From NCBI RefSeq assembly GCF_000346465.2, contig NC_034010.1, positions 2,674,926 to 2,738,925 on the forward strand: a stretch of 64,000 bases of DNA, written 5' to 3'. Both the position numbers and the translations under genes were made by a program. Below, in pieces: positions 5,450 to 64,000 of this stretch. The number at the start of each line of letters is the position of its first letter. The stretch's first letter is position 1. Source of the stretch: Prunus persica. Lineage: Eukaryota; Streptophyta; Magnoliopsida; Rosales; Rosaceae. Under the pieces are notes generated by a model. That model did not search any database and was not told the origin of the DNA. It worked only from the letters and a program-made list of their open reading frames with translations.

Positions 5450-6130
5450 TTAGATTTTTATTCTTCTCAAATTTGGAGGTATTTATAAAGAAATACAAAG
5501 ATTTGTTCACCCTAAATGCAATAGGAAATAAATCTAAATTACAATAGGAAATAAATCTCAATTACAATGGGACAAAATACATAGGTAAGTAAATAAAATC
5601 CTAACATAATACGGAACCAAAATCCTAACTAAATAAGGACTCGCCAACACTCTCTCTCAAGTTGGCTCAAAGATATTTCACATGCCTAACTTGACAAGCA
5701 AGTCATAGAACACCATACTCAACATTGACCCATCAAACAACTGTAGATAAGGTCTTGTCGTAAACCATGAGTGAAACAAAAGGCAAACCAAAGCAAAGAT
5801 CACAGCTGAAACACAAGAACAAACCCTAAAAAATAGAGCATACGGCAGAACACATAAACCCTAAAAATAGGGCACACAACAGAACACGGCAAAACACATA
5901 CGGAAACCATGTGAATACAGCAAAGGCATGGCAAGGCAAGAAACATAGAAATCCTGTGAACACGGTAAAGGCAAGGCAAGAAAGATATAAACCCTGTGAA
6001 CATGGCAAATGCAAGGCAAAAACAAACCCTAAAAATAGGGTAAGGCAAGGCGAAGCCAAACCCTAAAAAATAAGGTCAAGGCAAGGCAAAGCAAAGACAA
6101 AAGGCAACAACAGCAACGGCAATGACCACA
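5450..6130. repeat. Probable LTR-retrotransposon remnant plus degenerate AAGGCAAGGC-type repeats
   Basis: 5450-5720 contains a stretch (ACTCTCTCTCAAGTTGGCTC and following) of the type seen beside LTRs of Ty1/copia elements, and two copies of an ATAGGAAATAAATCT motif. From about 5800 to 6110 the motifs AACCCTAAAAATAG, CCTGTGAACA and GGCAAGGCAA recur irregularly as a decayed tandem array. The open frames on both strands here come from this low-complexity composition. The assignment is tentative. Confidence 0.35.
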
Positions 6131-41952: not shown

Positions 41953-43430
41953 TCACACACCACCCATTCCTTTAGCCAGAATTTCCATTCGACGACGGCG
42001 ATAATATTGTTGGAGCTCATGAGGCATTCCACTTATATCCATCAACATTATTCTCTCCTCTTTGTCTTCACGGTCGAGTCGAAGCCTCTCTTTATCCATC
42101 TCAAGCCTCTCCCTAAGCATCTCCATTTTCTCTAACCGATATTGCCTTTTATCTTCATTAACTTGGTCTTTCCATTTCTCCATGATGTGTAAGAGATCAA
42201 CAACTTGCTTATTTGCATTGTCATTCTTATCGTGATCTTTTGTCTTCAGCTTCTCAGCCTTCATTATTAACGGTCTCTCCATGTTCCCAAAATCAGAATT
42301 TACGACCTCCCTCCTTAATGGTGATGTCTCCATGTTCTCAACATCACTATCTGAGACGTCCTTCCTTACTGGCGGTCTCTCAATGTTCCCAAAATCAGTA
42401 TTTGGGATGTCCTTCTTTATCACTGGTCTCTCTGTGTTCCCAAAATCAATACTCAGGACCCCCTTCCTTGTCGATGTTCTCTCCCTGCTTCCAAAATCAC
42501 TATTTGGGACATCCTTCCTTACTGGCGGTCTATCAATGTTCCCAAAATCAGTAATTGTAATGTTCCTTATCAGTGGTCTCTCTGTGTTCTCAAAATCAAT
42601 AATCGGGACGTCCTTCCTTATCGATGGTCTCTCCCTGCTTCCAAAATCACTACTTGGGACGTCCTTCCCTATCGGTGCTCTCACCGTGTTCCCAAAATCA
42701 GTATTTAGGATGTCCTTCCTTATTGGTGGTCTCTCTATGTTCCCAACATCAGTATTTGTGACCTCCTTCCTTTTTTGTGGTCTCTCCATGTTCCCAGATT
42801 CAGTATTACAGACTTGGTCCTCCACAAGTTCTACCAAACTCTGTGAAGTAGAAGGAGATGAGAATTCAGGAGAGAGACTTGTACCTTTTACTCTATTTGA
42901 TGGTTTTTTCTTGTGCATATCATCCACCCACTTTGGGGCATCCTTCAACAGCTTCCAGCAATGGTCAAAATGAAATTTTCTCTTTTCCAATTTTTCGTAT
43001 AATTGTTTCGAATAAAAAAACTGCAAAAAAGTTCATTATCAAATATACACAAACACTGATTACCAACAAAATAAAATAAAAAAGATTGCGAAAAAAGAAG
43101 TTTACCTTATCCTGCTCATTCATGCCATATTTGTGCTCATTTTCCACTTGAGTAACATATTCACAAAATTTTTTGGTTGCAAGTTGAATAGTTGACCAAC
43201 GTTGTAGGAGTGATTTCTCCTCTCGATCACTTGCAAATGTTTTGTAGTTGTGGAAATATTGTGTCACTCGCCCCCAATAAGTAGCCTTTGGTTGACCTTT
43301 TATGTGTACGACATTCATGCTGGTTGCAAGCCATCCTTGTACAAGGAGAACATCTTCCTGTCTAGAGAAGCTCAGGCCCCGTAGTTTTCTTTTGGCAGTA
43401 TCTAATTGAACCGGAAATTGGGAGGAACTA
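41953..43430 (-). CDS. Trihelix/NAM-associated C-terminal domain protein (GST T3-like type), 5' end uncertain
   Basis: Exon A 43107-43430 encodes a Myb/trihelix-like part (SFSRQEDVLLVQGWL, YWGRVTQYFHNYK, RWSTIQLATKKFCEY). It is joined through donor AAG|GTAAAC and acceptor TTTGCAG to exon B, 41953-43020 (FFYSKQLYEKLEKRKFHFDHCW, PEFSSPSTS). It ends with a charged coiled coil (KMEMLRERLEMDKERLRLDR) and an MDISGMPHELQQYY tail. This arrangement is that of plant proteins often mislabelled glutathione S-transferase T3-like. They are related to NAM-associated domains and to accessory proteins of Harbinger-type transposons, and may bind DNA. Between the two conserved parts are about eleven copies of a 17-residue repeat. 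Upstream of 43430 the frame closes; a first exon or frameshift must be assumed. Confidence 0.75.
42260..42815 (-). repeat. Coding 51-bp minisatellite, about 11 copies
   Basis: The unit encodes N-(T/S)-D-F-G-N-x-E-R-P-x-x-R-K-D-V-x (17 residues, 51 bases). Copies differ by substitutions, and one is a residue shorter, but all keep the frame. Alternate copies share variants (SDFGSRERP twice, TDFGNIERPPVRKDV twice), suggesting expansion of multi-unit blocks. Confidence 0.85.
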
Positions 43431-52732: not shown

Positions 52733-53429
52733 TGTGGGAACTTAATAAAATCAAACCCTAGGTCAAATAATTCTTACCATTTGCGGATTTTTTGACCAAA
52801 TTGGGAGTCAATCAACCTAATTAGGAGTTACTCAATTTAATTGGAAATTATCCAATTAAATTGAACGTTACCTAATTAGGTTGAGATTTGATTTGGTTAA
52901 TTACCACAATCCCCAATTAAATGAGAAGCTACCTAATTGAATCGGGATTTGATTTGATACCTACCACAATTAGGGATTTGATTTACCCTAATAAATCAAA
53001 TCCCTAATTAAATCAAATCAATCCCAAAAAGGGGAGGAATAATTCCCTTCCATCTACGGAATTATTCCTCAGAAACCCTAGCCTCCGAGACTACTATAAA
53101 AGCATAGCCACACACAATGGTTGAGGTACGTGAGAATTACTACTAAAATCTCTACAGAAAATTCCTCTCAAACCCTAGCCACCTCTTCTCTTTCTCTCTT
53201 TTACATAAGTCTCCGGCCGCCCGATTTATATTATAAACACATCCCATATCCTATTTTAGCTATCGTTTCTCTAAAGACCGATTGAACTGACTTAGGCATC
53301 GGAGGGCCTTTGGCCGACACCCCCCGGGTGTGGTCTTTTACTCCGATCTGTTTTGCAGGGAGAAAGAGAGGCGGAGAAGACGAAGGAATCTTGGGCGAAT
53401 ATTCTCCCGTGAGATTATTTGCACAAACA
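52733..53429 (+). repeat. 5' LTR of the Tat/Retand element
   Basis: It starts TGTGGGAACTTAAT and ends ATTTGCACAAACA. It contains a promoter-like CTATAAAAGC at about 53093-53102 and the U5-type text GGCATCGGAGGGCC followed by GGCCGACACC, common in Tat LTRs. The 5 bases before it are CCAAC, the presumed target duplication whose partner is outside the window. Confidence 0.75.
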
Positions 53430-53431
53430 AA

Positions 53432-53450
53432 TTGGTGCTTTCATTGAGAG
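53432..53450 (+). other. Primer-binding site of the Tat/Retand element
   Basis: TTGGTGCTTTCATTGAGAG lies two bases after the LTR end, and TGG at its start would pair with a tRNA CCA end. Which tRNA primes it cannot be decided here. Confidence 0.6.
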
Positions 53451-53526
53451 CGCGAGTTATACTCAACGCGTGCTCAAGGAATCCGTTCCTCCTATTTTTC
53501 AATCCACCAAAGCCTTCCAAACAACC

Positions 53527-56121
53527 ATGGTTGGAAGTAAGAAGACGAGAGGCAAAGCCGCCGCGATGGCTAGATCCGCGACGACCCAAAGCCACTCCAC
53601 TCACGATCCCGCGATCGACATGGTGGCACCGCCACCTCTCACCACCGTACCGGCCACCGCCGCCGAACATGGTGGAACTTCCCATCAAGATGGACTCGCT
53701 ACTACCGCCGACCTAGGGCCGGTCTTGGAGCAACTCCAAGCATTCCCTCCATTGCCTCCACAAGCGACGCACGCTCCTGCATACACCGCCAATGAAAACC
53801 TAGCCCGTGTGCAGTTGGGCTCCACACACTTCTCTCCTCCCGATCCACGAAGTCAAGCAGACCTTAATCTAAGAGTCGACCAGCTAGCTCAGAGAATGGA
53901 TGACCAAAGCAATCTAATGAGGCAGCTCATCAACCAAATAAGTTTTGCTCAAAACCTTGGCCTTGGACAACCGGGCGAGGAGAGAAGGATGGACGAACGC
54001 GCCAGCAGACGACTCGACGTTCGTGCCCGCTTGGGCCCGCAAGGAGATGTACATCAAAGGCTAGGCCCCCAAGGAGGTCAGCCAAACAACCATCGCAATG
54101 AGGATCGCGAAGAAAAGTGCTCAGCTGTCAACTCACAGAGAAGCGCTCTCGAAAGGCTAGGCCCCCAGGGAGGCCAGTTGGACAACCCTCACAATGAGGA
54201 CCATGAGGAAAGACGCTCCGTTACTCACTCTCAAAGAACCAATTCTCGTCGACAAGCTACAGAGAATCTTTCGCAGGCGCAGTCCACCAACACTCCAACT
54301 AGGCAGCCCAGGCGAGAAGGTCGACCCTCGGAGGACAATGAGGAAGTCAGTCAATATCGTAGAGGTCGCCAACGTAACCGACTAGCAATGTGCGCAGAGG
54401 ACGTTGAGAAGCTCATGAATGACCGACTTCGAGACTTGAAGACCGGGGGAAGCTTCGAGGATTCACTACGTAAGGAGATGGACCAGGTGAGCTCTACGCC
54501 TTTCACCCTCGATATCGAGCAGGCCGCTCACCCGAAGCGATTCTCGACGCCCTCGTTCATACACTTCAAAGGGGATTCCGATCCCGGGAGCCACTTAAAA
54601 CACTTCAAAAGTGTTATGATCCTCCACCAGGCTGACGACGCGCTAATGTGCAAGGTGTTTACGATAACCTTGCGAGGAGCAGCCCAAGACTGGTTCCACA
54701 CCCTACCATCCAGGTCGATCAGCAGCTTCAAGGAGCTAGCTTACGTCTTCACCAAAGAATACACCTCTTACCGGACAATCAAGAAAAATCCCGACCACCT
54801 GTACAACCTGCGCAAGAAGTCTGACGAATCCCTTCGAGATTACATCAAGAGATTCAAGGCAGAAAAGGCGAACATTGTAGGATGTGACGACCGAATCGCG
54901 TCCTCCGTTTTCAAGAAAGGCTTTCCAGCTGAGCACGACTTGTACCGCGAGCTGACTATCACTCCCAGCCAGACTCTGGCAGAGGTCTACGCGACCGCGG
55001 AACGCTACGCGCTCTGGGATGACGACCGAATCGCCGCAAAGAAGTCTACAAAGCAGGAAGATCAGCCAACTAAGCAGGCAGGCCAAAGAGGCGACGGATT
55101 TAACAACCGGAACAAAGACAAGCGCAGGTCGCACCCACAAGGGGAGGCTACGGCAGGAGAGAACTACACAAAGTTCACCATCCCCATACATCAAATCTTA
55201 GCCCAAGTGAAGAACAAACCTTGGGTAAGAAGACCACCACCCTTGAAGGGAAATCCGGACAAGAGGGACACTAGTAAATACTGTGCCTTCCATGGGACGC
55301 ACGGACACACGACGAACAACTGCTTCGCTTGGAAAGCGCATCTTGAAGAACTCGTGAGAGAAGGCCACTGCACTGAATTCGTTGCGAAGCAGGCCATCCA
55401 ACGGATTGAAGATCGAGACACCGCCAAGGAGCCGCCTCAGAAGGTCATAAGGATTAACACAATCCTAGCCGACTCCGAGGAGTCTGGGCTGACCAGCAAG
55501 GAAAAGAAGAGGAAGATCAAACAGGCCACTGTGATCTCCCAAGTCTCGACCGACCTTCCACTAGCAGAAGACGATCCTGTGATCGGCTTCCAAAAGAAAG
55601 ATCTGAACGGCCTCGACATGCCACATAACGACGCCCTTGTCATCAGCATTCAAATCGCTCAGGCCATGGTCGACCGAATCCATGCAGACGAGGGCAGCGC
55701 AGCCAATATCCTACAACTGGCGGTCATCCAACAGATGGGCTTGGAGACAAAGATCAACAAGTTAGCTAGATCGCTGACTGGCTTTAATGGTGCGACAACG
55801 GTTACCGTGGGCACGATAGACCTCGACGTCTACTCCCCACCTGTGATCAGCCTGCAAACATTCATGGTCATTAATGAGGTCTCACCCTACAACGGCATCC
55901 TGGACAGACCATGGATTGGCAAGATCAATGCCATCACCCCCGCCACACATCAGAAAATTCGGTACCCAATCCCTGGGGGCGGTGTCGGCCAAATCAACAG
56001 CGATCAAGCAATAGCGAGGAAATGCTCCGCCCAAGGGCTGAAGAAAGGCAAACAAGCTCAGTTTCTTCCTGTGAGCCAGGCAGGTCTGGAAGAGGTAGAG
56101 CAACCGAATCATGCTATCTTA
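53527..56121 (+). CDS. Tat/Retand gag and protease region (865 codons before an in-frame TAG)
   Basis: The start ACCATGG at 53527 has a good context and is preferred. N-terminal linker with a repeated LGPQGGQ motif (at least three times between 54030 and 54180); capsid-like core (FIHFKGDSDPGSHLKHFKSV, TLRGAAQDWFHTLPSRSI, YIKRFKAEKANI) at about 54550-54960; zinc-binding segment YCAFHGTHGHTTNNC at about 55278-55322; protease-like domain (HADEGSAANIL, then YNGILDRPWIG) at about 55680-55920. The active site reads Asp-Glu-Gly where retroviral-type proteases have Asp-Thr-Gly. Gag packages element RNA; the protease would cleave the polyprotein. The frame meets TAG at 56122-56124 and continues open in the same frame into pol. 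Confidence 0.85.
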
Positions 56122-56124
56122 TAG

Positions 56125-59100
56125 CAATCAAAGCGTCAGGACCAAGCCGAGGAAATTCGTCCAGAGGTCTTTCCGGAAGAAGGATGGAAACCCGAGGAGG
56201 ACGTCGAGTTAATACCCTTGGATCCTGACCAGCCAGACAGGAAAGCGCGGATCGGCTCGCGCTTAAGCCCAAAAGAAAAGGTGGAGCTTACCACATTCCT
56301 CCATAGCAACAAAGACATGTTCGCATGGTCGCCATCAGACATGCCTGGCATCGACCCAAACATCATCTGTCATCGGCTCCACGTCAACCCCGCGTGCAAG
56401 CCAGTGGCGCAGAAGAGACGCAACTTCGCACCCGAGCGAGTCGCTATCATCGAAGCCGAGATTAACAAACTCCTAGCTGCCGGCTTCATCGAAGAGGTCT
56501 CCTACTCAGAATGGCTTGCCAACGTTGTCTTGGTGGCAAAACAAGAAAAGGGCAAATGGAGAGTTTGCGTCGATTACACAGACCTCAGCAAAGCATGCCC
56601 TAAAGACAACTTCCCATTGCCGAGAATCGACCTACTCATGGATTCCACTTCTGGCAATCAGCTGCTCAGCTTCATGGACGCCTACTCCGGCTATAACCAA
56701 ATCCTGATGCACGAGGATGATAAGGCGAAAACTTCTTTCATCATCGAGAGAGGGACTTACTGCTACAAGGTCATGCCCTTTGGGCTGAAGAACGCCGGAG
56801 CAACCTATCAAAGGCTTGTAAATAAAATCTTCAAGGAGTAGATCGGCAAAACTATGGAGGTCTACGTGGATGACATGCTGGTCAAAGCCCCAAAACGTGC
56901 AGATCACATTGGAAATCTTGCTGAGTCATTCAGCTTGCTCCGCCAGTATCGCATGAAGTTGAATCCAAGTAAATGCACGTTTGGTGTATCCTCCGGCCGA
57001 TTCTTGGGATACCTAGTCACACAACGAGGTATCGAGGCACACCCACGCCAAATCAAAGCCATTCTCGAGATGAAATCGCCCTCAACGGTGAAGGAAATAC
57101 AAAGTCTGACGGGCAGAGCAGCGGCACTCAACCGATTCCTCTCGAGATCAACTGACAAGTGCAGACCATTCTTCAAAGCTTTGAAGAAAGGACAAAGAGA
57201 CAAATGGGACGAGGAGTGCGAAGTAGCTTTCCAGAGTCTGAAGGCTTACCTCGCCTCACCTCCTCTGCTCTCAAAACCAGTCCCTGGTGAGGACTTGTTT
57301 GTATACCTAGCAGTGTCCAACTCAGCTATTAGTTCAGCTCTCATCCGAGAAGAGCTGGGGGCCCAACATCCGGTATTCTACACGTCAAAAGCTCTCCTCG
57401 ATGCAGAAACTCGCTACCCGAAGTTGGAGAAACTTATTTTGGCTATTGTAGTTTCTGCGAGAAAGCTGCGACCCTACTACCAAGCTCATCGAGTCATCGT
57501 CATGACCGACTTTCCTTTGAGATCAATCCTCCACAGCCCTGATGCTTCTCAGCGACTCATGAAGTGGGCTATAGAGCTAAGCCAATATGACCTCCTCTAC
57601 CGGCCAAAAACTGCAATAAAAGCCCAGGCTTTAGCAGACTTCGTCGTAGAATTCACCCCGTCAGCCGAAAAAGAGAAGTTGGTCAACCAAAAGAAGGAAA
57701 GTTCAGAAGCAGACGGGACCTCCGCAGAACCTAGCCAACCCAGAGACATGTGGCAGTTGCGCGTAGACGGAGCGTCGAACCAAAAAGGAGCTGGAGCAGG
57801 GGTCGTCATCACCACTCCGGATGGAACCCTGTTGGAGCAAGCTATTACGCTTGGCTTTCCGGCTCGAACAACGAGGCAGAATACGAGGCATTGCTCGCCG
57901 GCCTACGCTTGGCAAAAGGGCTCGCAATCAAAAAGCTAGCCATCTACTCAGACTCACAATTGATCACGAATCAAGCCTCAGGTGAATACATGGCAAAGCA
58001 CCCAAGGATGATCTTGTACCTTGATAAAGTCCAAGAGCTGTTGAAGGCATTTCCCACCTTCACCATCCAACAAGTGCCCCGGGCAGAGAACGCTCATGCA
58101 GACGCACTAGCAAGCCTAGGATCAGCGCTGGATACCCAGTTCAGATACTCCATCCCAGTCGAACACCTTGACCGACCAAGCATTGAAGAAATAGAGCTAA
58201 TCGATACCATGCAGATTGACGAGGACCCCAGTTGGCAAGACCCCATCATCGGCTATTTGACGAATGGAAACCTGCCAACGGACAAGTCCGAAGCTAGAAA
58301 AGTCCAGCAGAAGGTCGCGAGATACTACATGCACGGCAACAAGCTCATCCGCAGATCGTACTCCGGCCCACATCTCACCTGCATAAAGTACCCTCAGACA
58401 CTTGAGGTTCTTTGCAAAATTCACGACGGCGAGTGTGGCAACCACTATGGGGGCAGGTCGCTCGCCCAAAAAGCTCTAAACATAGGCTACTTCTGGCCTA
58501 CCATGCGTCACGACTCCTCTGAATATGTCAAGAAGTGTGATCGCTGTCAGTGATACAAGCCAATCCCTAATCTGCCTGCCGAAGTCTATCATCCGCAAAA
58601 CAGTCCATGGCCGTTTATGCAATGGGCCATCGACCTAGTGGGTCCCTTGCCACCAGCGCCCGCCAAGAAAGAAATGATGATCGTCGCCACCGACTACTTT
58701 ACTAAATGGATCGAGGCCGAAGCTCTATCCTATACTAAAGAAGCCGATGTAGAGCGATTCATCTGGAAAAACATCATCTGCCAGTTTGGCTGCCCACAAT
58801 CACTAGTTACAGACAATGGCTCGCAATTCATCGGCAAGCAGATCAATGCCTTCTTCAAAAAGTACGGCATCAAGCAGCATCTATCTACCCCAAGATATCC
58901 TCAAGGCAACGGCCAGGCCGAGGCATCCAATAAAATAATATTGGACTGTCTAAAGAAGAGATTAGAAGACGCTAAAGGAAAATGGGTGGATGAACTCCTC
59001 GGAGTACTATGGGCTTATCGCACCACCAAACGAAGATCGACTGGTGAAACCCCATTCTCCCTCGCCTATGGAACAGAAGCGATCATACCACCTCACATCA

Positions 59101-59468
59101 CTGTCCCCTCCATAAGCTTGGAAGTGGGCAGTGTTGATCAGAACTCCGAGCAGATGAGGCTCAACCTCGACTTACTTGAAGGCGAACGTGAGAAGACCAT
59201 TATCCGGGTCGCCTCCTATCAGCAGCAGTTGAAGTCTTACCATGATAAAAGAGCTAAGGTCAGACAGTTTCAACCAGGCGACCTCGTGCTAAGAAAGGCT
59301 TTCATTACTACACCGAGGCAAGGGTCGAAAAAGATGAATCCTAACTGGGAGGGTCCTTACAAGATCAGCCGGTCTGGGGGTAGAGGAAGCTACACACTCG
59401 ACACTATGGAGGGGAAGGAAATACCACGACAATGGAATGCTCACCATCTTCGAAAGTATTATCCATAG
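56125..59468 (+). pseudogene. Tat/Retand pol: RT, RNase H, second RNase H, integrase, with three breaks
   Basis: RT with LPRIDLLMD, FMDAYSGYNQI, MPFGLKNAGATYQR and YVDDM (56863-56877). RNase H at about 57280-57660. Archaeal-type second RNase H at about 57750-58140 ([37 protein letters not shown]). Integrase with its zinc-binding H-H-C-C block at about 58420-58550, and catalytic D (DLVGPL), D (TDNGSQF) and E (NGQAEASN). Breaks: TAG at 56839-56841 where Gln is conserved (before IGKTMEVYVDDM), a missing base near 57865 in the [10 protein letters not shown] region, and TGA at 58551-58553 where Arg is conserved (CQ*YKPIPNL). The final part 58617-59468 is open to the stop at 59466-59468. Gene order with two RNase H domains defines the Tat lineage. 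Confidence 0.88.
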
Positions 59469-59610
59469 CACCTCCTCATGGCTGCTAGAAGTTCTAAGTT
59501 TTGTACCAAGTTGTTTCCATTTTCGAATAAAGGACTATAATCTTATGAATATCAATATAAGTTCAGTTTCTCATTCCTAAATGTCTCATCTGCCCACAAA
59601 ACACAACATT

Positions 59611-60260
59611 TGCCCATAAGCAGCGTCCTTCGGGAGACGCAGGGTACGCCAGGAATTTCCTAAGGGAGATATCCAGGTTCCTATCCGTCTCCTAAGGGAG
59701 GCAAGATGGTCACGCATTTGCCCATAAGCAGCGTCCTTCGGGAGACGCAGGATACGCCAGGAATTTCCTAAGGGAGATATCCAGGTTCCTATCCGTTTCC
59801 TAAGGGAGGCAGGATAGTCACACAGTTGCCCATAAGGAGCGTCCTAAGGGAGACGCATGGCGACGACTAAAAGCGTCCGTTTGGAGACGCAGCCCGCTAA
59901 AAAAGCGTCCTAAGGGAGACGCAAGGTGCGCCAGGAGTTTCTTAAAAGGGGGTCCCATGTTTCCTGCGGGAAATATCCAGGTTCCTATCCGTTTCCTAAG
60001 GGAGGCAGGATAGTCACACAGTTGCCCATAAGGAGCGTCCTAAGGGAGACGCAGGGCGACGACTAAAAGCGTCCGTTTGGAGACGCAGCCCTCTAAAAAA
60101 GTGTCCTAAGGGAGACGCAGGGTGCGCCAGGAGTTTCTTAAAAGGGGGTCGCCATGCTTCCTGCGGGAAATATCCAGGTTCCTATTCGTTTCCTAAGGGA
60201 GACAGGATAATCATGTAGTTGCTCATAAGTAGCGTCCTACGGGAGACGCAAGGAGACGAC
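59611..60260. repeat. Tandem block A, units of 108 then about 197 bp, hairpin-rich
   Basis: Unit starts TGCCCATAAG at 59611, 59719, 59827, 60023 and (TGCTCATAAG) 60220 give spacings of 108, 108, 196 and 197. Each unit has one to three copies of GCGTCC-(4)-GGAGACGC-type inverted repeats, nine in all, plus several CC-TAAG-GG palindromes. Tandem repeats in the 3' untranslated zone are known in Tat-lineage elements and can seed satellites. No protein is encoded. Confidence 0.85.
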
Positions 60261-60265
60261 CAAGG

Positions 60266-60655
60266 CATCCTACGGGATGTGCAGAATACACCCGGAGTCT
60301 CTCAAGGGGGACCCTGGTGCTTGCCAACTTCCTAAAGGGAATCATCCTACGGGATGTGCAGAACACACCCGGAGTCTCTCAAGGGGGACCCTGGTGCTTG
60401 CCAACTTCCTAAGGGGAGTCATCTTAGGGGATGTGCAGAACACACCCGGAGTCTCTCAAGGGGGACCCTGGTACTCGCCAACTTTCTAAGGGAAATCATC
60501 CTAGAGATGTGCAGAACACACCCGGAGTCTCTCAAGGGGGACCCTGGTGCTCGCCAACTTCTTAAGGGGAATCATCCTACGGATATGCAGTGCATGTCCG
60601 GAGTCCTTCAAAAGGGACCCTGGTACTCACAAATCTCCAAAGGAGGACGTGCAAT
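60266..60655. repeat. Tandem block B, five units of about 77 bp, hairpin-rich
   Basis: Unit starts CATCCTACGGGATG or variants occur at 60266, 60343, 60420, 60497 and 60573 (spacings 77, 77, 77, 76). Units share ATGTGCAGAA, ACACCCGGAGTCTCTCAAGG, GGACCCTGGT and GCCAACTT. Because 77 is not a multiple of three, the repeated peptide shifts frame; the open frames here are by-products of the repeat. Confidence 0.88.
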
Positions 60656-61004
60656 CAACACATAGGTTGGTTACTCATGCAGTTCACAAGTCAAATATGC
60701 AAGTTGAAGTTGGAAAATGTAACTGAAATTTCCATAACAAACAGACCAACCGGCCAAGTTTAACAAAAAGAAGATGGTCAAATAAAGACCAATTATTCTA
60801 AACAAAAAAGCAAACTACAAAAGCTGAAAAGAAACAAAAAAGAGTCTTCGTCTACTTGGAGACACCAGCAGAAGACTTTTAAGCAGCGGCCTCTTCGGCA
60901 TCCACTTGGCTAGCTACGTCGTCAGCAACTCCATCTGCCTGAACCGTGACATCTGCCACCATCTCGTCTACTGCGTCTACCTCTGCTTCATCCTCTCCGG
61001 TTAC
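60656..61004. other. Spacer and 3' UTR of the antisense gene
   Basis: Between the tandem repeats and the stop of the minus-strand gene. Contains minus-strand low-complexity Asp/Glu/Ala/Val-like reading immediately after the stop (60890-61000), perhaps an older C-terminal extension. Nothing else identified. Confidence 0.4.
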
Positions 61005-63072
61005 CTACTCTTCAAATCCCCCTTCCATAGGGGGTGAGTCGGGGCAAAGCATCTCGATGTCTACATCGTCAATCGCATACAAGGAATCAGTCCCATTTGC
61101 GCAATGCAGGTAGCCCAACTTGTACGCATCTATGGTGGCTTCAGACTTGGATTCTTTGGCAGACTTATGATAGGCATGAAACCTAGCCAGGAGTTTGTCA
61201 TAGCTAAGGGAGATGTCCGCATTCTTACGCTCAAGACGAAAGAAGGCATCTTTTCGACTAGCCAAATCAGCAGCGGAAAAGTTGAGCTCGGAATCCTTCT
61301 CGGTAAGGGAGTTTTTCAGCCCAGATATCATCGCCCTTAAATCAGACGTCTTCTTCTCATAGCGGGTCTGCTCGGCGGAAAGCTGGCTGGCCAATTCAGC
61401 ATTCTTCTTCTCCAACCCGCTGAGCTGGGCAGAAGAGGGGGCAACAGCAGATGAGTTTCGAATAGTCTCAGCAACAAAAATCAGTCCCTTTTGAATCAGA
61501 TGGAATGACGTTTCCCTTTGTTTTTCCAAGGAAAGACACGAGAAAGTGCCAAGATCGCCAGCCTGACGGATGTGATCGACCAACTCAGCACAGGACGACG
61601 GATTTGATAGGAAGTTCGTCTTGAGCAGATCAGATACGCATACATCCCCTACAGAGCTAGGCTTGTTCACCTTAGGACCAACTGCCGACGTGGAGGAAGA
61701 ACCCTTAACCCGGGCAGATGACTCTCTCATCTTCTTAGCCTCCGCTAACTTCATCTCCAAAGGAGTCAATAATGCTGGATCATGAGCAGACCTCCCGTTT
61801 CGATCTCCATCTTTTGACCGATGCAGATGACTTGAACTTCTAGGAGGAATGTCTGCGTCTCTTTGACGCTCGACAGAACTAGGTCGGGCACGAGCCGTTT
61901 CACGAAACATATCATGGTTGTCGAGCGTGTCAGCAGGAGACTCGGGTGGAACACCCCGAATACCGCGCATACCACCAACCTTCGTGCTATCTGCACCCAC
62001 AAGATGCTTGACCCTGGTAGATGATGAGGGAGCAGACCCCACTTGAGGCTTCTCAGCAGAAGGAAGCCTTGGTTTCTTCCTCGATGGAGACCCATCCTTC
62101 GCATGCGAAGAAGTAGCTTCACCTCTTGAAGATTTGGCAGCAACTTTTCTCTTTGAGAGAGATTCAGCAGAACATTCTTCCTGTCCGCCAAGCAGATCAT
62201 CAGGGTCAGGGCTGTTCTGCTTCCACCTTTCGACGTCCTCGACAGGGGGCAAGCCACCGTCTTCCTCCCGGTACTCACTCAACAGCCAGCGCCACTCGCG
62301 AAACCTTAGAGGGATGTTCAAAGCACGACGGACCTTAGCCATGTCCGGCCTAAGCTCCAATTGCTTGCTAATGTCACTCACTGCAAGCAGAAGACAGAAG
62401 TTAGTTAGCCACACTTCAAGAAATTCAAATGAAAGGAGCGCATCAAAAATTGCAAAGAGACATACCATCGCAATAGGTGATGGGAACAAGTGGGCCATCA
62501 CCAACGTCGCCTTCCCACCGTCCGCTGACCTCCAACACGTCGTCATGCCAAGCGTGATCCCCTTGACTAAGACTGTTAAACAGCTTGGCCTTGTAGACGC
62601 GAACTTGGGCATACTGCTCGAAGTGCCTCACTTTGAAGAAATAAAAGAACTCTCGCACCGTCAGCTCCAACATGAAGAAACGACTCAGATTCTTGAAGCA
62701 CATGATCGCCCGGTAAGAATTTGGAGTACACTGGCTCGGAGCACACCCCATGGCGCAGAACACCTCCTTGAAAAGCTTTGACAACGGGAATTTGAAGCCC
62801 AAGGAGAAGTAAAAAGGACGGAAGGTGATGATCCTAGCATCAAGATCATTCGCATCCACCAAAGGCTCGTTGTCCTTCCGAGACTTCAATAGCTTAACCC
62901 GCACGTCATCTGGAATGGCAGACGCATAAGCAGCTCGCCACTTTTGGAATTGAGCATCAGTCGTGACGCGATGCAAGTTGGCCACAAACTTCTTGCTATG
63001 CACTATGGAGCCTCCCCATAAATACAAAGGGACTTGAGAACTTGGAGTCTTGCTACCATCTCCGGAAGACAT
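61005..63072 (-). CDS. Antisense gene of the Tat/Retand element, two coding exons (660 aa)
   Basis: Exon 1 62466-63072 and exon 2 61005-62380 join at GATG|GTATGT and TTGCAG|TGAG in frame, giving 660 aa. The N-terminal half (LYLWGGSIVHSKKF, ITFRPFYFSLGFKFPLSKLF, LTVREFFYFFKVRHF) matches the plant family described as putative gypsy-type transposon protein (Transposase_28 group, from memory). The middle is Ser-, Arg- and Lys-rich and looks disordered with basic patches. The C-terminal third is a coiled coil (LEKKNAELASQLSAEQ onward) ending in an acidic tail. ATG at 63072 (MSSGDGSKTPSS) follows a plausible leader-intron acceptor. Unlike the + strand pol, this frame has no stops or frameshifts that I can see. 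The protein's job in Tat elements is unknown; regulation, RNA handling or movement are all guesses. Confidence 0.82.
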
Positions 63073-63895: not shown

Positions 63896-64000
63896 ATAAA
63901 AATTCCTTGACCTACAAGGAATCGCAAATTCTTTCCAACCTAGGAGTTCATAAAATTAGCAAGTCAAACACCTCCTCTACGCAGGAGCCCAAGTCCACAA

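Follow-up and report, generated by a model that had tools for sequence, protein, structure and literature searches.

Retroviral genomic RNA contains cis-acting stem-loops for packaging and dimerisation, which lie near its 5' end and are not organised as long tandem arrays. Elements of the Ogre/Tat type carry family-specific tandem repeats in a hypervariable 3' UTR, downstream of the coding region and ahead of the 3' LTR. As cited by later work, Macas 2009 reportedly formulated a strand-transfer hypothesis for such arrays. Different from the reading developed below, the accessible part of PMC7004042 discusses these repeats as recombination products and seeds of satellites, and it contains no mention of hairpins, of 'palindrom' or of secondary structure. 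Two features are attributed to Retand elements in the available portion of PMC6317226, namely a second RNase H, aRH, which follows RNase H, precedes integrase and is common to Ogre, and a TRP28 antisense ORF between pol and the 3' LTR. Both tandem arrays and antisense TRP28 ORFs have already been published for this part of the element, as a preliminary description of the present locus had stated for the repeats, and the accessible text of PMC11963269, which describes them, calls the origin and function of the arrays unknown; that text never uses the terms hairpin, stem-loop, inverted repeat or secondary structure, and its only instances of 'palindrom' are in the reference list. As for the hairpin folding of such arrays, which the preliminary description had called undescribed, no mention of it was found among the titles and the beginnings of abstracts listed in literature searches.

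The locus considered here lies in a window of 64,000 nt, by which the whole stretch of DNA analysed is meant. This window holds most of one Ty3/gypsy element, with gag, RT, RNase H, an RVT_3-type RNase H and integrase ordered on the + strand, and its main features are the following:

53419-56124, + strand: gag-containing ORF (PF03732 Retrotrans_gag, E 1.2e-12)
56218-58553, + strand: pol pieces in separate ORFs, comprising RT (PF00078), RNase H (PF17919/PF17917), the RVT_3 second RNase H-like domain (PF13456) and the integrase zinc-binding domain (PF17921)
58617-59468, + strand: integrase core, which is the end of pol (PF00665, E 7.5e-15)
59606-60262, + strand: array block A, 108-bp and 196-bp units made of hairpin modules (TRF, repeat search)
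60263-60643, + strand: array block B, 76-77-bp units (TRF, repeat search)
61005-63072, - strand: convergent antisense ORF, split into two pieces that overlap (61005-62612 and 62443-63072; ORF list)

The RVT_3 match (PF13456), which we take to be the aRH domain, sits downstream of RT_RNaseH and upstream of the integrase H2C2 domain, so that the second RNase H used to recognise Retand elements is present. The antisense piece 62443-63072 shows a weak Transposase_28 (TRP28) match (PF04195, E 3.1e-5), whose 24.6 bits fall below the curated cut-off of 26.2. The element is of Retand type (Tat clade), and its array lies in the non-coding sequence that separates pol from the antisense ORF. With the Retand (TatVI) POL-3'LTR region it shares the domain order including the RVT_3-type RNase H, the weak-TRP28 antisense ORF, and a tandem array adjoining pol whose unit number varies between copies; hairpins, a sense-strand bias and compensation between families are added here to the published description (PMC11963269, accessible text). 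No LTR pair was found within the 64,000-nt window, and the 3' end of the element probably lies past base 64000. Both pol (56218-58553) and the antisense ORF (61005-63072) are split over several ORFs in the window copy, with the pol frame broken, and this copy therefore looks inactive.

The array spans 59606-60643, with the integrase stop near 59468 on one side and the antisense stop near 61005 on the other, and its claimed position between two convergent genes is real: it lies between the end of pol and the convergent antisense ORF. Its principal hairpins are these:

59623-59640, + strand: G(C/T)GTCC-N4-GGAGACGC hairpin with a TTCG centre (motif search)
59731, 59839, 59873, 59905, 60035, 60069, 60101 (GTGTCC) and 60232, + strand: eight further G(C/T)GTCC-N4-GGAGACGC sites
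59687-59702, + strand: GTYTCC-TAAG-GGAGGC hairpin with outer arms of the TATCC/GGATA type, repeated at 59795, 59991 and 60188
60297-60312, + strand: GTCTCT-CAAG-GGGGAC hairpin of block B, repeated at 60374, 60451 and 60527, with a variant at 60603

All nine sites first reported as GCGTCC-N4-GGAGACGC were recovered by motif search, one of them as GTGTCC. Their centres in the window are TTCG, TAAG, GTTT and TACG, and a search of the window's + strand found no such site outside the array. CATCC-TACG-GGATG, ATTTCC-TAAG-GGAGAT and ACTTCC-TAAG-GGGAGT are further hairpins of the array; the first and last of these are among the additional types that had been claimed. Although hairpins are indeed present, the clean 6-bp stem around a four-base centre does not hold for the G(C/T)GTCC class, which folds either as a 5-bp stem with an 8-base loop or as 3+3 bp with a 2-base bulge. 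The T-G pairs of GTYTCC-TAAG-GGAGGC read A-C on the opposite strand. UNCG loops are specially stable; many loops in these arrays are of this kind and closed by C-G (TTCG, TACG, TGCG, and TCCG in the 97-bp type introduced below), and the commonest loop, TAAG, still has T first and G last. The 'compensated stems' claimed inside the window were not confirmed: the example offered from block B, GTCTCT-CAAG-GGGGAC becoming GTCCTT-CAAA-AGGGAC (60297 and 60603), consists of three one-sided changes, with only one side altered at each pair.

When both strands were folded, as the preliminary description had suggested, structure above chance was found on the sense strand only, with a whole-array MFE z of -5.2 (+) and -1.3 (-) against dinucleotide-preserving shuffles that keep composition. 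Block A gave -5.7 (+) and -1.9 (-), and block B -2.4 (+) and +0.95 (-). Loop-4 stems of >=6 bp, G-U allowed, number 15 on the + strand (shuffle mean 2.5, maximum 5 in 60 shuffles) and 0 on the - strand (shuffle mean 3.4). Whole-array values are inflated by repetition, and therefore the values of single units matter: -4.1 (+) and -0.7 (-) for the 108-bp unit, -2.4 and -0.9 for the 196-bp unit, -1.5 and -0.2 for one 77-bp unit, and -2.2 and +0.4 for two. Across 120-nt folding windows, the mean z is -1.29 (+) and -0.24 (-) in the array (10 windows) and -0.30 (+) and -0.22 (-) in the remaining element (75 windows). Within the window's element family, the predicted structure is thus a property of the sense RNA; on this folding and strand comparison, and by position, the sense RNA of the array would be part of the gag-pol/genomic RNA. 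The excess of G-U over A-C inside the window (41 vs 19) is no proof of this, because the sites overlap and repeat and because T-rich and G-rich arms favour G-U by composition. An Rfam search of 58500-61500 gave no match in the array, and one sub-threshold snoRNA outside it, at 60950-60998 (-), E 0.86.

Related elements show how far this arrangement extends. Of the 24 loci L051-L074, for which integrase similarity was the sole criterion of choice, 15 carry arrays with the window's TCC-N4-GGR modules; L055, L058, L072 and L074 have differing units with only short matches to the window array. Six others (L052, L053, L056, L063, L064, L068) have a 97-bp array that lacks similarity to the window's and yet occupies the same place after pol, and three (L061, L062, L067) show neither type in the stretch examined. 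In the more distant L050, L061, L062, L067 (a partial integrase match) and L077, arrays longer than about three units were absent from the stretch examined; L075 and L076 had no pol match and were excluded. Since sisters have an unrelated array at the same place, arrays seem to be exchanged between related families. The 97-bp unit folds as TATGTC-CCC-GACATA, as TGCTC-TCCG-GAGCA inside CTCCATTG...CAATGGAG, and as AGGC...GCCT, with z of -6.6 (+) and -3.0 (-) for two L053 units and -2.3 (+) and -2.2 (-) for two L064 units. In L056 (2 units), L063 and one L068 unit, TGCTC/GAGCA is replaced by TACTT with GAGTA or AAGTA, a two-sided change of G-C to A-T that probably represents few events. This array type is widely repeated, with at least 45 matches (40 of 56 candidates scored). 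A third element, L049, whose pol is 32-63% identical to the window's over the matched pieces, has 39- and 48-bp arrays that are structured, on the antisense more than on the sense strand. A viral contig search yielded no relative.

Strand bias was compared in 33 arrays, folded in windows of <=180 nt: 4 of the 40 own-family copies, 21 sister loci, six 97-bp arrays and the two L049 arrays. The sense strand is the more structured one in 26 of them (Wilcoxon p 3.8e-5, a value that is not clean since the loci are related), and sense z lies below that of 8 other tandem repeats taken from the window as controls (p 0.002), whereas antisense z is not clearly lower than theirs (p 0.07). The remaining seven, with antisense structure equal to or above sense, are L055, L072, L074, L079, L080 and both L049 arrays, and z is close to 0 for the L058 and L074 units. 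The bias is clear in arrays of the window and 97-bp types, mixed in L055-like loci and reversed in L049. As for the controls themselves, the short tandem repeat at 5821-5887 is strongly structured on both strands (z -2.2, -3.9), on par with the arrays, and the second tandem array of the window, at 42258-42807, has an unremarkable fold.

The covariation test across copies, also proposed in the preliminary description, gave a divided answer. In the window's own family, 297 GCGTCC-class hairpins from 40 copies were compared with within-locus shuffles, and no excess of compensation was found (paired cells 805 vs 803.6, doubles 5 vs 5.6 in shuffles), a null that is expected because the changes are private to dead copies. 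Transitions that keep G-U and those that break pairing are about balanced there (25 vs 24 alleles, in three frequency classes); in this tally the registers of modules M3 and M4 were off by one, and these modules were excluded from pairing claims, with few of their pairs remaining in the P:M totals. Among sisters, 163 hairpins from 21 loci (15 selected by integrase similarity, six by array similarity) did show an excess after within-locus shuffling, both in paired cells (387 vs 366.0) and in double changes (67 vs 48.9), each with 0/2000 shuffles as high, and none when the registers were slid by 1 and 2. The signal is carried by pairs 1 and 3, while pair 2 contributes nothing (750/2000 shuffles); in a smaller set of 94 hairpins, with other core patterns and fewer loci, pairs 1, 3 and 2 were reached by 6, 41 and 1051 of 2000 shuffles. 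With triplet combinations counted once per locus, 284 were paired vs 264.9 (0/5000 shuffles) and 31 were fully Watson-Crick vs 21.2 (14/5000 shuffles). Full Watson-Crick pairing is seen in seven outer triplets, namely GCG/CGC (14 loci), ACG/CGT (4), GCA/TGC (5), ACA/TGT (3), ATG/CAT (2), GTG/CAC (2) and GTA/TAC (1).

For module M2 (GTTTCC/GGAGGC), 44 sister instances gave 185 paired cells vs 173.8 (4/1000 shuffles), with doubles not significant (17 vs 14.3, 199/1000 shuffles), and the own family gave 760 vs 755.8 (21/1000 shuffles), with 7 doubles vs 5.9. The M1, B2 and B3 sets, six of the eight own and sister sets, were dropped, because the M1 and B3 anchors were so loose that different registers or classes were combined, and the B2 anchor likewise brought several hairpin classes together: the M1 own set showed a large excess in true and slid registers alike, the B2 sets had doubles of 165 vs 102.6 (own) and 43 vs 32.1 (sisters), mainly in the true register, and the B3 sets 356 vs 238.0 (own), again mainly in the true register, with no excess in sisters. 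When all column pairs of the sister alignment are scored, unpaired columns go as high as z 4.8, with ranks of 4, 8, 9, 96 and 107 among 270 for the structural pairs; corrected mutual information places the three outer pairs at 3, 17 and 42 of 378. Unpaired columns thus score like paired ones, so that unit ancestry yields part of the signal and support is moderate. Among their one-sided changes, sister hairpins show A-C (50) as often as G-U (52), and covariation therefore does not name the strand. The claim that structure rather than sequence is maintained finds no support for the tested class within the own family and moderate support between related families, where the unrelated 97-bp hairpin array adds to it: judged from these alignments, hairpins appear to have been kept there while the letters changed.

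Three things are computed directly, namely hairpins of the sense RNA, moderate compensation between families, and hairpin arrays of differing sequence that recur at one place. The reading that we prefer, with a probability of roughly 0.5, is that the array is a structured, cis-acting part of the sense genomic RNA whose hairpins are kept between families. Its units would fold into short hairpins in that RNA, and the array would act in cis as a structured 3' region, with dimerisation or packaging, strand transfer in reverse transcription, or RNA stability as candidate roles. Such hairpins would resemble the retroviral cis-acting elements in being short stem-loops of sense genomic RNA, here known from predicted folds, and would differ from them in lying away from the 5' end and in forming long tandem arrays. 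The array may, on this evidence, serve as a functional RNA element instead of being junk; if arrays are kept for their fold, they have a function that can be tested, and the free variation of their sequence while the array persists is explained. A wider proposition, that the family-specific arrays of Retand elements in general are rapidly turning-over series of hairpins in sense genomic RNA, whose sequence can change or be exchanged as a whole while dense short stem-loops at this position are kept for a cis role in packaging or reverse transcription, is offered only tentatively and is less likely.

Copies of the family in the genome (227.5 Mb, 192 contigs) bear on both the preferred reading and its main rival. 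At least 70 matches to the window array were found (40 of 165 candidates scored), and the own-family set consists of 40 copies chosen by array match. Several of them share breakpoints: 58799 is joined to 59590 or 59715 in L013, L014, L016, L017 and L037; 60695 is followed directly by 63960 in L018, L021 and L026; the array is followed directly by 63960 in L013, L014 and L017; and matching ends at 60695 in L022, L030, L032, L033 and L037. The antisense ORF is missing in L018, L021, L026, L013, L014, L017, L022, L030, L032, L033 and L037. Since copies without the end of pol or the antisense ORF share breakpoints, such forms multiplied with the array retained, and they are likely to be non-autonomous subfamilies that multiplied after deletion. 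Retention of the array in deleted copies is weak evidence for a cis role, because the copies were picked by their arrays.

The main rival holds that the array is a by-product without function: RNA hairpins would make reverse transcriptase pause or jump, duplicating hairpin stretches, and two-sided changes would arise from hairpin-templated copying. A sense bias is what it predicts, because the template is sense RNA, and array length between landmarks is variable, from 602 to 1428 nt over the 40 copies; abnormal strand transfer has already been proposed for such arrays (PMC7004042, accessible part). Yet templated copying should turn T-G pairs into Watson-Crick ones, and the two T-G pairs of GTTTCC/GGAGGC persist, in 124 and 129 of 134 instances in the family and in 31 and 24 of 44 in sisters. 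Moreover, among the integrase matches listed with >=92% identity (137 of 2486 candidates scored), 20 of 22 have an array match <=2.5 kb away on the same strand, and the two that do not (C2:9950088 and C1:16616645) could correspond to unscored candidates of the array search; this association also favours the preferred reading. Both points leave jumping as such unaffected, and we regard this explanation as possible, if rather unlikely.

Chance combined with shared ancestry fares worse. Units that are first pyrimidine-rich and then purine-rich would give G-U-tolerant hairpins whose counts are inflated by tandem duplication, and single-unit counts indeed exceed shuffles weakly or not at all: in loop-4 stems of >=5 bp with G-U, out of 1000 shuffles, 105 match the 108-bp unit, 68 the 196-bp unit and 66 the 77-bp unit, and with Watson-Crick pairs only the numbers are 1000, 1000 and 73. 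These counts are weaker without G-U, and the structure therefore relies on T-G pairs, whose counterparts on the opposite strand are A-C. The lack of covariation in the own family and the unpaired columns that covary as much as paired ones also speak for this explanation. Dinucleotide shuffles, however, keep composition, and single block A units still reach sense z of -4.1 and -2.4 (one block B unit only -1.5); in turn, pairing rises above within-locus shuffles when the register is the true one, and in neither of the two slid registers. This makes chance an improbable account of the array.

That the hairpins stop converging sense and antisense transcripts, the main idea of the preliminary description, is the least probable of all, for although the array lies between two convergent ORFs and sense AATAAA signals occur before it (59526) and after it (60781), the antisense RNA of the window's family has no loop-4 stems of >=6 bp, no antisense AATAAA occurs in 59467-61008 and neither strand of the array contains one, copies lacking the antisense ORF retain the array (albeit picked by it), and genomic RNA must cross the array to reach the 3' LTR. 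The alternative suggestion that the array marks genomic RNA fits better than ending or blocking antisense transcription, because the predicted structure lies in the sense RNA and full-length sense RNA crosses the array anyway. At the other end of the element, a G+C-rich inverted repeat (ACACCC...GGGTGT) is present at 53317-53332, about 90 bases 5' of the gag ORF.
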